A DNA stretch of 14,313 nt from Flavobacteriaceae bacterium (GTDB taxonomy: Bacteria > Bacteroidota > Bacteroidia > Flavobacteriales > Flavobacteriaceae). The stretch lies in NCBI GenBank assembly GCA_030618945.1, contig JAUXCI010000035.1:1-14313 (forward strand), read 5' to 3'. This document shows positions 11,187 through 14,131 of this stretch, piece by piece. Below the pieces are notes generated by a model. That model saw only the letters and a list, made by a program, of their open reading frames with translations. It ran no database searches and was not told where the DNA came from. Positions within the stretch are counted from its first letter, which is position 1. Each line of letters starts with the position of its first letter. Both the position numbers and the translations under genes were made by a program.

Positions 11187-11210
11187 GCTAGTTTCCGTTC
11201 ATCATATATA

Positions 11211-11240
11211 AAAGGCCTGATTAGTTTCAGGTCTTTTTTT
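11211..11240 (+). terminator. sucC intrinsic terminator
   Basis: AAAGGCCTGA (11211-11220), loop TTAGTT and TCAGGTCTTT (11227-11236) make a 10-bp stem with one G-U pair, running into a seven-T tract (11234-11240). It lies 24 bases after the sucC stop. The loop plus closing pair (ATTAGTTT) is identical to that of the hairpin at 5816-5835. Confidence 0.88.
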
Positions 11241-11579
11241 GTTTTATCAGATCAAAAAAATACAATATTCAATGCTAATTTATGAAAATCTTCTTTTTCA
11301 AATCTGAAAAACCAATATTTTATTCATGCCATTTTGTGAGAAACGATCAATTTTTAGTGTTTTTGCATTCCCCGTTTTCCTTAAAGGATGCAAGTAAAAT
11401 AAGTAATTTGCAAATAATATTGCAAGAGTTTTTGAAGAATATGACATGGGAAAGGAGTAGAGGCGTCAAGTTAAGTAACTAAATTACAGTAAGTTAAATC
11501 TTAGTTTGTATGAATATTCAGTAATTTACAAGATCTAACGGTTTCTGGGGATATTACAAATTCACATTTTTATCTATTG

Positions 11580-11608
11580 TTTGATACTTGTTTTATCGCC
11601 TACATTTG
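11580..11608 (+). promoter_or_regulatory. Promoter of the small secreted-protein array
   Basis: TTTG at 11580-11583 and TACATTTG at 11601-11608, 17 bases apart, match the Bacteroidota promoter TTTG / TAnnTTTG at every fixed position. It is the closest match in the window. The transcript should start near 11613, leaving a leader of about 245 bases before the ATG at 11859. I find no equally good promoter nearer that ATG or in the gaps between the following small genes, so this one may serve the whole array. Confidence 0.72.
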
Positions 11609-11802
11609 AACTATGGTTTTCAAGTGAAATCATACTTCTTTAACAAACAATAAAATTTAACAAATAAAGCATGAGATAAAATTACTTTCTAAATTTTTCA
11701 CAATAATAAAAAGATCAATGTTAAATATGACTGGGTTCTTTTTAAACTTTAGAAACTTTCTTCTCAATTCTTGTTAAATTTCTTTTACGACAATTTTTCT
11801 TA

Positions 11803-11829
11803 TTTGAAATTAGATTCAAACTTTTGAAT
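11803..11829 (+). promoter_or_regulatory. Two mutually exclusive small hairpins in the leader
   Basis: TTCAAA (11815-11820) can pair either with TTTGAA upstream (11803-11808, six-base loop) or with TTTGAA downstream (11823-11828; with one more base each side the dyad is ATTCAAA-CT-TTTGAAT). It lies about 30 bases before the start codon at 11859. The stems are short and AT-rich, so this may be chance or an operator rather than an RNA switch. Confidence 0.25.
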
Positions 11830-11858
11830 TACTAAGTATTAACATAAATATTTCAATT

Positions 11859-12203
11859 ATGAAAAAGATAACTTTATTATTCGCCTTTAGTATTGTAAGC
11901 TTGATTGGTTACGCTCAAGAAACTAATAAATCAACAACAAATTTATCGGAAAGTCTAGAACGGAAAACAGAATACATTATTGTATTAGATGATGAAGTTG
12001 TAGGTAATAATATAGATATGTTGCTGAATGGCAACAATATAAGAGAGAATTTAAAAATGGATTTTCACACTCATGAGTTAGTCCATGACGTTCCAGAAGC
12101 TATCGATATCGAAAGTAAATTTATTGATGGTGCTTATTCTTATAATGAATATGCTGTTAATTATTCTTCAGCGCAGTTTTTTGAACCTTCAATAGGATCT
12201 TAA
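11859..12203 (+). CDS. Small secreted protein with HELVH motif, array member 1
   Basis: Not a family I can name. The 114-residue product has a clear signal peptide (Lys-Lys, hydrophobic 5-16, GYA before Gln20), so it is exported and probably about 95 residues when mature. A polar Ser/Thr/Glu stretch (21-37) precedes TEYIIVLDDEVVGNN (37-51), then FHTHELVHDV (69-78) and FIDGAYSYNEYAVNY (88-102). The HELVH at 72-76 recurs in the three genes that follow, and IDGAYSYNEYAV lines up with the LDDGTYTLKVYT of members 2 and 3, which suggests remote homology. It lacks their FPNGEE block and their C-terminal strands. It is the most diverged member or a related founder. It lies first after the long leader and 77 bases ahead of member 2. 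Confidence 0.75.
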   Translation: MKKITLLFAFSIVSLIGYAQETNKSTTNLSESLERKTEYIIVLDDEVVGNNIDMLLNGNNIRENLKMDFHTHELVHDVPEAIDIESKFIDGAYSYNEYAVNYSSAQFFEPSIGS

Positions 12204-12280
12204 ATCAACATCATTCAAAAGTTATCTTCCCAATCATACTAATAATAATATCATTCATTAAACTCATAAACATAAACATC

Positions 12281-12667
12281 ATGAAAAAAATCGTATTAAT
12301 TATCGCTATTGCTTTAACAGGAATTACAACTTATGCCCAGGATCAGAAAGTTGCTCCAAAAGAGACCATAACAAAATATGTAACTACTTTTCCTAATGGA
12401 GAAGAGGCCATAACTATTACTGACAAATCGTCTTCAACTCAATTAAAACTTACTTCTGCAGACAATTTCTACAAATACGAAATTCTAGAATCATCTAATC
12501 ACGAATTAGTACATGGTCAAAGTAACAAAGGGAAAATCTGTGATATTGACAAAAGCAAATTGGATGACGGAACTTATACGCTAAAAGTTTATACCAGCGA
12601 TTTCGTAATTACCTCTGATATTACAATTGATAACAATCAATATTTATTAGAAGGTAGCATCCAATAA
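12281..12667 (+). CDS. Small secreted protein with FPNGEE and HELVH motifs, array member 2
   Basis: Unnamed family; 128 residues with a signal peptide (MKKIVLIIAIALTGITTYA before Gln20). The mature part begins with a short polar linker, then KYVTTFPNGEEAITITD (32-48), FYKYEILESSNHELVHG (63-79) with HELVH at 74-78, one cysteine (C87), and IDKSKLDDGTYTLKVYT (89-105) leading to two predicted beta strands at the end. The last part resembles the strand-turn-strand pattern of type IX secretion C-terminal domains and DUF3244-like beta sandwiches (Leu, Asp-Gly-x-Tyr, alternating hydrophobic residues), so a small beta-sandwich fold is likely. That is inference from pattern only. From residue 32 on it matches member 3 at 69 of 86 positions. 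The gap to member 3 is 30 bases with no promoter or terminator visible. Confidence 0.85.
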   Translation: MKKIVLIIAIALTGITTYAQDQKVAPKETITKYVTTFPNGEEAITITDKSSSTQLKLTSADNFYKYEILESSNHELVHGQSNKGKICDIDKSKLDDGTYTLKVYTSDFVITSDITIDNNQYLLEGSIQ

Positions 12668-12697
12668 TCCAAACAAGTAACAATAAAAATATATATC

Positions 12698-13087
12698 ATG
12701 AAAAATTTAGTTCTATTAATCGCCATTACCTTATTGAGTGTATCAACTTACGCTCAAGCCGATACAAACAAACAATCTGAAAAAGTAATTAAATATGTTA
12801 CTACATTCCCAAACGGTGAGGAAGCCATTACTGTAACTGATCGTTCAACTTCTGACGAACTCAGTTTGTCTTCAGCGGATGATTTCTACAAATATGAAAT
12901 TCTGGAGTCATCCAATCACGAATTGGTACATAGTTCCAATAACCAAGGGAATATTTGCAATATTGATAAAACTAAGTTGGATGATGGTACTTATACATTA
13001 AAGGTATACACTAAGGATTTCGTGATCACTTCTGATATTACCATTGAAAATGGACAAAATGGTCAAATTGATTCATCGATCAACTAA
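12698..13087 (+). CDS. Small secreted protein, close paralogue of the preceding gene, array member 3
   Basis: 129 residues; signal peptide MKNLVLLIAITLLSVSTYA before Gln20. It repeats the layout of member 2 residue for residue from about position 32: KYVTTFPNGEEAITVTD, FYKYEILESSNHELVHS with HELVH at 74-78, single C87, and KLDDGTYTLKVYT (93-105). The two genes differ at many third codon positions where the protein is unchanged (for example in the codons for KYVTTFPNGEE), so the duplication is old and the protein sequence has been kept by selection. Differences cluster in the linker after the signal peptide, the turn after HELVH and the C-terminal tail. Function unknown. The tail is rich in Asn/Gln/Gly. 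Member 4 begins 34 bases later. Confidence 0.85.
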   Translation: MKNLVLLIAITLLSVSTYAQADTNKQSEKVIKYVTTFPNGEEAITVTDRSTSDELSLSSADDFYKYEILESSNHELVHSSNNQGNICNIDKTKLDDGTYTLKVYTKDFVITSDITIENGQNGQIDSSIN

Positions 13088-13121
13088 GCATCCTTAGCTA
13101 GTCTTAATTTAAATTTTAAGT

Positions 13122-13481
13122 ATGAAATATATATTCAATTTTATAATGATGTTTATAGGCTATATGGGATACTCACAAAGTAATATTAGCGGAAGAGAAA
13201 GCAATCATGTTACTACTTTTCCAAATGGAGATGAATCTATTACCATCATTGAAAATTCAAAATCAAGTGTTTTAAAACTCAGCTTATCAGAGGATTTTCA
13301 AAGATATCAGAGCCTGGAACTTTCAAACCACGAAGCAGTTCACAGTTATTCTAATAAAAAAAGAATGAAACTGATAAATAAAGCAGATCAAAAAAAAGGG
13401 AACTATACGGTAATTGCATCTGATGATCGTTTAGGTGCTTCGAAAAAGGATTCAATTAACGAAGTAAAACAGGGGTCATAG
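13122..13481 (+). CDS. Diverged and shortened secreted paralogue, array member 4
   Basis: 119 residues; signal peptide ending GYS before Gln19. It keeps the core HVTTFPNGDESITI (29-42), LKLSLSEDFQRYQSLELSNHEAVHSYSN (51-78) with HEAVH at 70-74, and a weak form of the DDGTYTLKVYT strand (KKGNYTVIAS, 91-100). After that it departs from members 2 and 3: the terminal TSDITI strands are replaced by a charged tail of Lys, Asp, Glu and Gly. The conserved Cys is missing. It may be a decaying or re-purposed copy; the frame is intact and the signal peptide is good, so it is probably expressed. A 14-bp hairpin follows 7 bases after the stop. Confidence 0.78.
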   Translation: MKYIFNFIMMFIGYMGYSQSNISGRESNHVTTFPNGDESITIIENSKSSVLKLSLSEDFQRYQSLELSNHEAVHSYSNKKRMKLINKADQKKGNYTVIASDDRLGASKKDSINEVKQGS

Positions 13482-13488
13482 AGAATCC

Positions 13489-13525
13489 AATGATCCATTA
13501 AACCGGGGGGATTTAATGGATCATT
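13489..13525 (+). terminator. Perfect 14-bp hairpin with G-rich loop after the array
   Basis: AATGATCCATTAAA (13489-13502) pairs perfectly with TTTAATGGATCATT (13512-13525) across a nine-base loop CCGGGGGGA. It lies between array member 4 and the DUF2911 gene. No T-tract follows, so it may be a U-less terminator, a transcript-end stabiliser or a processing site. The six-G run stands out in an AT-rich gap. Confidence 0.5.
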
Positions 13526-13561: not shown

Positions 13562-14131
13562 ATGAAAAGCTCAAACTTAATCAAACTATTTATTTTACTA
13601 GTACTAGGATTCATTTTAAATAATGACCTAATAGCTCAACAATTTTCTGGAGTAGATCAAAATCCACATGACATAGTGTATTATCGACCAGGTCTTGACA
13701 AAACTCCACAGATTAAAGTGGTATACGGCAGGCCAAATGCAAAAGACAAGGAAGTGTTTGGAACTCAAGTTCCTTTTGGAAAAATATGGAATACAGGATC
13801 TAATGAATCAACCGAGGTTAAGTTCTATTGCGACGTAATGTTTGGGAATAAATTCGTTAAGGCAGGAAAGTATTCCTTATATGCCATTCCAAACAAGAAT
13901 TACTGGATCATTATCTTAAATGGTAAAACGGACACTTATGGAGCCCATTTTTATGATCCAAAATATAATATTGCTACAATTGAAGTGCCAGCCGTAAAGG
14001 GTCAAAGATTGGAAAATTTTTCAATCGGGTTTTCTTCAAAGAATTACGGGACTCAAATGATATTGGCCTGGGCCGAAACGAGGGTTAAAATCCCTTTGTA
14101 TACAGAAGAAAGATTAATTTCAAGAATATAG
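13562..14131 (+). CDS. Secreted DUF2911 family protein
   Basis: 189 residues with a signal peptide (hydrophobic 7-19, cut before Gln26 in LIAQQF). The mature protein matches DUF2911: NPHDIVYYRPG (34-44), PQIKVVYGRPNAKDKEVFG (49-67), VPFGKIWNTGSNESTEVKFYCDV (70-92), GKYSLYAIPNKNYWIIILN (102-120), then the Gly-Ala-His-Phe-Tyr-Asp block and a late LAWAET strand. The usual family sequence is WRTGANE-ST; here it reads WNTGSNE-ST, a small departure. DUF2911 proteins are widespread in Bacteroidota, presumably periplasmic or exported, with no established function. It follows the secreted array by 80 bases on the same strand but is separated from it by the hairpin at 13489-13525, so co-transcription is uncertain. 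No promoter of the TAnnTTTG type is obvious in that gap. Confidence 0.92.
   Translation: MKSSNLIKLFILLVLGFILNNDLIAQQFSGVDQNPHDIVYYRPGLDKTPQIKVVYGRPNAKDKEVFGTQVPFGKIWNTGSNESTEVKFYCDVMFGNKFVKAGKYSLYAIPNKNYWIIILNGKTDTYGAHFYDPKYNIATIEVPAVKGQRLENFSIGFSSKNYGTQMILAWAETRVKIPLYTEERLISRI

Follow-up and report, generated by a model that had tools for sequence, protein, structure and literature searches.

Tandem genes for small secreted HExxH proteins in Lutimonas and neighbouring Flavobacteriaceae, two of which look like stand-alone T9SS sorting domains

Introduction

The C-terminal sorting domains (CTDs) of the type IX secretion system (T9SS) are common in Bacteroidota and are usually viewed as mere export tags. 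In Porphyromonas, two parts of the domain matter for T9SS function, a β3–β4 loop with a conserved glycine and a C-terminal strand with a conserved lysine (PMC11285876). The lysine near the CTD C terminus is described as almost invariant and functionally important, RemZ Lys1110 being an example (PMC10994853), and the lysines of motif E as required for efficient secretion (PMC10202324). Type A CTDs fold as an Ig-like sandwich of seven strands, and a β-sandwich of this kind is also seen in DUF3244 (PF11589), which comprises small Bacteroides proteins (3d33, 3sd2 and 4g5a). Here we describe four adjacent genes, A–D, of a marine Lutimonas-like bacterium, in a window of 14,313 nucleotides, by which we mean the whole stretch of DNA analysed (contig JAUXCI010000035.1 of Flavobacteriaceae bacterium assembly GCA_030618945.1; genome G000, 79.9% complete). 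All four encode small exported proteins with an HExxH motif, and B and C seem to be variants of the T9SS CTD/DUF3244 β-sandwich, a fold that is supported, not proven. Our preferred reading, to which we give a probability of roughly 40%, is that a stand-alone CTD-like β-sandwich has been turned into a secreted binding protein, which would hold a metal or a shared ligand at its His-Glu-His site.

In the literature, we recognised no paper describing the A–D family and found no characterised family for it. PorA of Porphyromonas gingivalis, unlike A–D, has a FimH-like domain and acts on PorXY–SigP signalling, and the available part of its description does not mention an HExxH (PMC7712824).

A conserved HExxH motif in four exported proteins

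A first-pass annotation of the window had described four consecutive plus-strand genes for exported proteins of 114–129 residues (aa), each with an HELVH or HEAVH pentapeptide, and TTFPNG(E/D)E common to B, C and D. Open reading frame (ORF) coordinates and signal-peptide-like starts agree with this description, and the translations confirm every motif (Table 1). Each N terminus has a hydrophobic, signal-peptide-like stretch that ends in YAQ or YSQ, and the closing Q is invariant in the matches listed for A (120), C (120) and D-type proteins (115). These lists hold the best 120 matches per query, with the window's own proteins possibly among them, from 159 matches found for A, 499 for C and 529 for the D type, for which five B/C-like rows were set aside.

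HExxH is kept in 118 of the 120 matches listed for A, in 120/120 for C and in 113/115 for the D type, that is, in 351 of 355 listed proteins, each of the four exceptions being without one His. This conservation is not due to chance. Among the array genes themselves, the motif occurs in 63 of the 64 in the window and 22 loci (L040, which has runs of N, was left out). In a 40-row A-type alignment (A6, which like the 43-sequence A5 is a hand-picked diverse set), the sole invariant residues after Q20 are H72, E73, H76 and Y98. The two middle positions behave differently. Position 3 is L and position 4 is V, L or I in the best 120 C matches, whereas in the D-type list position 3 may be A, V, L, I or E and position 4 V, A, N, K, I, M, Y, D or F, with the first H, the E and the last H kept in 114, 115 and 114 of 115. 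The HE(L/A)VH pattern first proposed therefore stands for H-E and the last H and fails for a strict L/A and V, and we write it as HExxH.

Likeness of B and C to T9SS CTDs and DUF3244

The match of B and C to T9SS CTDs is weak but consistent. Against a CTD profile, the B/C profile scored 28.0, and the maximum in 100 shuffles was 19.0. The CTD set held 20 sequences (26 loci from G000 and the single-contig genome G025, minus eight with a wrong or no extracted segment, minus one duplicate, plus three CTD-only proteins); the last three came from the B/C family's own profile and were removed again in a repeat comparison. In a Foldseek search with a low-confidence model of C, DUF3244 and T9SS CTD structures made up nine of the top ten fold matches. 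Like T9SS type A CTDs, B and C appear to have a PN(P/G) start, an L-x-x-G-x-Y stretch and a final strand at corresponding places; unlike them, they stand alone behind a signal peptide. As for DUF3244, PF11589 touches 2 of 43 members, under its cut-off (best E 0.025), and 3sd2 is without HExxH at that place. We file B–D as a probable new form of the CTD/DUF3244 sandwich rather than as T9SS cargo. The first-pass annotation had named two findings as fatal to its proposed family, and neither appeared: no characterised family took all four proteins, and unrelated folds were not seen, with the model of A (pLDDT 55, pTM 0.18) too poor for fold comparison.

The two residues that mark CTDs are replaced in B and C. 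The β3–β4 glycine column corresponds to the residue just before HExxH in two alignments, others shifting by one residue, and this place in C (residue 73) is N in 118 and S in 2 of the best 120 of 499 matches. Asp113 of C aligns with the β7 lysine in the hidden Markov model comparison and again when the residue ranges matched to RemZ are compared, and Asp occupies the place in 35/35 B/C genes and in all of the best 120 C matches; by eye, 20/20 CTDs have Lys or Arg before their last hydrophobic stretch. Past the last strand, B/C proteins carry a tail of 3–15 residues (median 12).

A secreted binding protein as the preferred reading

We propose that A–D would cross the inner membrane by their ordinary signal peptides; from there on, the export route, the loss of T9SS recognition, metal binding and the fold of A are what we infer. 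B and C, and D by descent, would each fold as a single Ig-like β-sandwich of the T9SS-CTD/DUF3244 kind, without cargo. In this sandwich N or S would stand in for the CTD glycine before β4, with the invariant HExxH directly after it, an invariant Asp would replace the β7 lysine, and the tail would be extra. B–D would probably be kept in the periplasm or released rather than travel as routine T9SS cargo. The His-Glu-His site may bind one ligand common to A–D, most likely a divalent metal, and the rest of A and D may have diverged to suit different partners. A site for a metal or another small ligand is suggested because H, E and H are strict even in the fast-evolving D and A.

Several observations weigh against this reading. 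The local profile match between B/C and CTDs spans just 27–33 columns, chiefly in the C-terminal half, and A and D on their own show no match (68/100 and 15/100 shuffles scored as high). The curated cut-offs are missed: for TIGR04183 and PF18962, C reaches 15.6 of 23 bits and 13.6 of 27 bits, B reaches 13.4 and 13.4 bits, and A and D are not listed. The model of C is poor (predicted local distance difference test (pLDDT) 57.2, predicted template modelling score (pTM) 0.35) and gave no Foldseek match at E <= 0.001; it is all-β, and the motif is split, HE lying in a loop and LVH belonging to a strand. One D protein, that of G025, has HEVKP in place of HExxH, as has the database hit P0244, and three more listed homologues are without one His of the motif. 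Within a strand, the two His of an HExxH lie about 13 Å apart, so a shared metal would need a helical turn or a bridge between two chains, a caution that helps to keep our overall confidence at the level given above. The nearest public label, Por secretion system C-terminal sorting domain, is the one UniRef gives to the L. vermicola homologue P0055, the other homologues listed being mostly hypothetical proteins. Finally, the argument for loss of export is weakened by mutational work: 16 point mutations in the RgpB CTD revealed no indispensable side chain, the CTD glycine can be exchanged for Pro (not for Arg), mirolase lacks it although a real cargo, and a His-tagged C terminus did not stop secretion of PPAD (PMC11285876), while the contacts of the lysine are not conserved (PMC10994853).

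Part of this evidence favours another, unlikely account, in which B–D are T9SS cargo cut down to signal peptide and CTD, exported and then shed or surface-anchored, with HExxH a surface feature. A genuine CTD should work in this lineage because SprA was found in 3/3 genomes searched. Proteins of such a build exist in the window's genome and in two same-family genomes, the UniRef name is of this kind, and export often does not depend on a given CTD residue and may tolerate a tag at the end (PMC11285876). Yet the motif E lysines, which PMC10202324 calls required, have been lost, all 35 B/C genes having Asp at the crucial position, the tail is extra, and both curated scores are too low. Because two CTD marks are replaced, we think a periplasmic or released binding protein more likely than routine T9SS export, to which we give a minority chance.

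Among the CTD-only proteins, one of 116 aa in the window's genome (L019, contig C22, 461–811) has nothing beyond a signal peptide and a T9SS CTD of near-textbook form, others occur in same-family genomes (L005, 112 aa; L008, 111 aa), and G025 has a closely similar short frame (L056).

A bolder and improbable version of the preferred reading is that a T9SS sorting domain left the secretion pathway, lost its export residues, gained an invariant HExxH metal site in their place and multiplied, in Lutimonas and its neighbours, into secreted metal-binding or metal-dependent proteins. A family of stand-alone domains whose export marks are replaced next to one strict His-Glu-His site, and which purifying selection maintains, would mean that a sorting tag can turn into a functional protein, and nature would thereby have tested which residues of the CTD matter to the translocon. 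Such a family would also give a handle on proteins now named as hypothetical or as sorting-domain proteins.

How the four proteins are related

Sequence comparison makes B–D paralogues: identity to C is 67% for B and 34% for D, and D scores 144.8 against the B/C profile, for which the shuffle maximum was 19.6 (0/100 as high). A is likely homologous to B–D: it scores 35.8 against the same profile, with 0/100 shuffles as high, and the tie appears to run mainly through the motif, since the score falls to 14.7, equalled by 3/100 shuffles, once the five motif columns are deleted. Growth by tandem duplication, as first suggested for all four genes, is thus borne out for B–D and weaker for A.

In an alternative, also unlikely, A is not homologous to B–D, its HExxH is of separate origin and the genes are merely adjacent; this is compatible with any reading of B–D. 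The deleted-motif score and the model of A, which yields no fold, speak for it. Against it, A lies directly upstream of the rest in every array locus that reaches that far, and a K-x3-G-x-(Y/F) stretch follows the motif at a similar distance in A and in B/C.

In a tree of 44 B/C/D-type sequences, D forms one group (99/98) on very long branches, for which the tool warns of possible false joining; B, too, is a single group, moderately supported (87/77), next to C. On this tree the neighbouring clade's second copies require several changes, and the two copies of locus L033 pair together (100/99), so duplication or gene conversion happened more than once. The ratio of nonsynonymous to synonymous substitution rates (dN/dS) is 0.04–0.17 in measurable B/C-type pairs (synonymous rates were saturated in three), 0.13–0.36 for A and 0.20–0.45 for D. 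The earlier picture of a conserved core amid fast-changing sequence therefore describes A and D better; B and C are under constraint along their whole length.

Contact surface or peptidase

The conserved patch might instead be a metal-free protein–protein contact, through which A–D, made together, form a hetero-oligomer or surface layer. We consider this rather unlikely. The adjacent genes, their short gaps (77, 30 and 34 bases for A–B, B–C and C–D) and one common patch kept while A and D diverge would suit it, but strict H, E and H with variable middle residues in D resemble ligand chemistry more than they do a packed interface.

The minigluzincins are HExxH peptidases with about 100 residues, and zincins in general have a helical site with a further zinc ligand. 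That A–D are minimal zinc peptidases of this kind is very improbable: the exact HExxH pattern in a protein of about 100 residues is common to both, but the low-confidence model of C is all-β and has the motif spread over a loop and a strand, with no helical site found, by eye no third ligand is common to the A, C and D alignments, and no catalytic peptidase family in Pfam or NCBIfam was found for A–D at E <= 10 with HMMER filters on (the propeptide domain PepSY_2 gives 0.083 for C, and the serine family Peptidase_S49 gives 0.039 for one of 40 A-type proteins).

Distribution

Genome scans found the array only in Lutimonas and neighbouring Flavobacteriaceae, in keeping with the lineage-specific secreted family first proposed. 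A contig scan, which relied on just two peptide patterns and is thus biased to close relatives, turned up 22 loci, spread over 19 named genomes or metagenome-assembled genomes whose titles read Lutimonas, Flavobacteriaceae, Flavobacteriales, Flavobacteriia or Bacteroidia. Among 249 same-family genomes, nine matched profile A2. Three of these have the array (G000, G025 and G146), two have CTD-only proteins (L005 and L008) and one a 101-aa secreted protein without HExxH (L006); the remaining three matches (L007, L009 and L010) cover the first 45–65 positions only. Profile A6 matched 8 of 397 same-family genomes, a draw that overlaps the 249, with A near full length in five and the first 28–43 positions only in three. 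Across the order, with just 11 candidates scored per listed genome, profile A5 at E 1e-5 matched 1 of 395 genomes, the window's own.

A phage origin and a defence origin were both tried and set aside. A tblastn search with C against 50,697 phage records gave no match at E 1e-5, PHROGs matches reached E 0.014–0.24 only, and PADLOC gave no match for A–D at E <= 1.

Layout and surroundings of the array

Table 1. Features in and around the array (positions in the window)
Feature	Position	Strand	Description
Terminator-like hairpin then T run	11210-11237	+	3' of sucC; similar hairpin and T run by eye in most rows of a 9-locus alignment
Imperfect palindrome GGGAnnTTnnAAnnTCCC	11547-11564		just 5' of the promoter match
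Bacteroidota-type promoter match	11577-11608	+	TTG 11577-11579, TTTG 11580-11583, TACATTTG box 11601-11608
Presumed leader of array transcript	11609-11858	+	opens with a short hairpin (11612-11634) and TTCTTTAACAA
Gene A	11859-12203	+	114 aa exported protein (signal-peptide-like start); HELVH residues 72-76, codons 12072-12086
Gene B	12281-12667	+	128 aa exported CTD-like protein; HELVH residues 74-78, codons 12500-12514
Gene C	12698-13087	+	129 aa exported CTD-like protein; HELVH residues 74-78, codons 12917-12931; Asp113 at CTD β7 lysine place
Gene D	13122-13481	+	119 aa exported, fast-evolving paralogue; HEAVH residues 70-74, codons 13329-13343
Hairpin between D and DUF2911 gene	13489-13525		z -3.76, -19.1 kcal/mol
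DUF2911 protein, signal peptide	13562-14131	+	PF11138, E 3.2e-38; constant downstream neighbour of array

The array appears to lie behind its own promoter, matched with the Bacteroidota consensus: TAnnTTTG with a TTG ending 21 bases upstream occurs 5' of gene A in 20/20 loci tested, some 215–298 bases before the ATG, and the first-pass guess of a transcript start near 11613 agrees with the TACATTTG box in the window. A sigma-70 scan showed no excess (15 matches; 17.0 in shuffles), as expected for another promoter type. The palindrome GGGAnnTTnnAAnnTCCC, noted in the window and at L075, lies ahead of the promoter in several loci and is better kept in other Lutimonas loci. As an operator it was rejected: its sole other exact copy in G025 lies within a TonB-receptor-like ORF and G000 has none, so no regulon is seen.

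The leader hairpin is found in most of 20 loci, its sequence varying by lineage (mean z −1.98 over the 20; window alone −1.24), and RNAalifold gave no consensus for it. It is followed by TCTTTAACA in 15 of the 20 (window 11609–11650 and 19 others), a sequence we take to resemble the boxA antitermination element. No Rfam family reached its gathering score in the window, which also holds no tRNA. By codon bias in G025, A–C stand at the 59th–83rd percentile of 29 background ORFs and D at the 28th, and there is no clear sign of very high expression of the array. None of 11 other loci matches the strength of the hairpin that separates D from the DUF2911 gene, their folds at this place being −12.8 kcal/mol or weaker.

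Upstream of the array the neighbour varies, being sucC in 7 of 15 listed loci and otherwise another gene or the contig end. Downstream, a DUF2911-like ORF of 188–203 aa follows in 12/12 listed loci that extend that far, as judged by sequence, Pfam having been run on the window's copy only. Beyond it, our reading of the ORFs gives a constant order in nine loci (L021, L022, L024, L025, L027, L029, L030, L032 and L037), namely a short opposite-strand gene (135–157 aa), then genes for an ATP-binding cassette (ABC) ATPase and a pair of MacB-like permeases, to which several loci add an adaptor. In L029 there is also a second DUF2911-like ORF.
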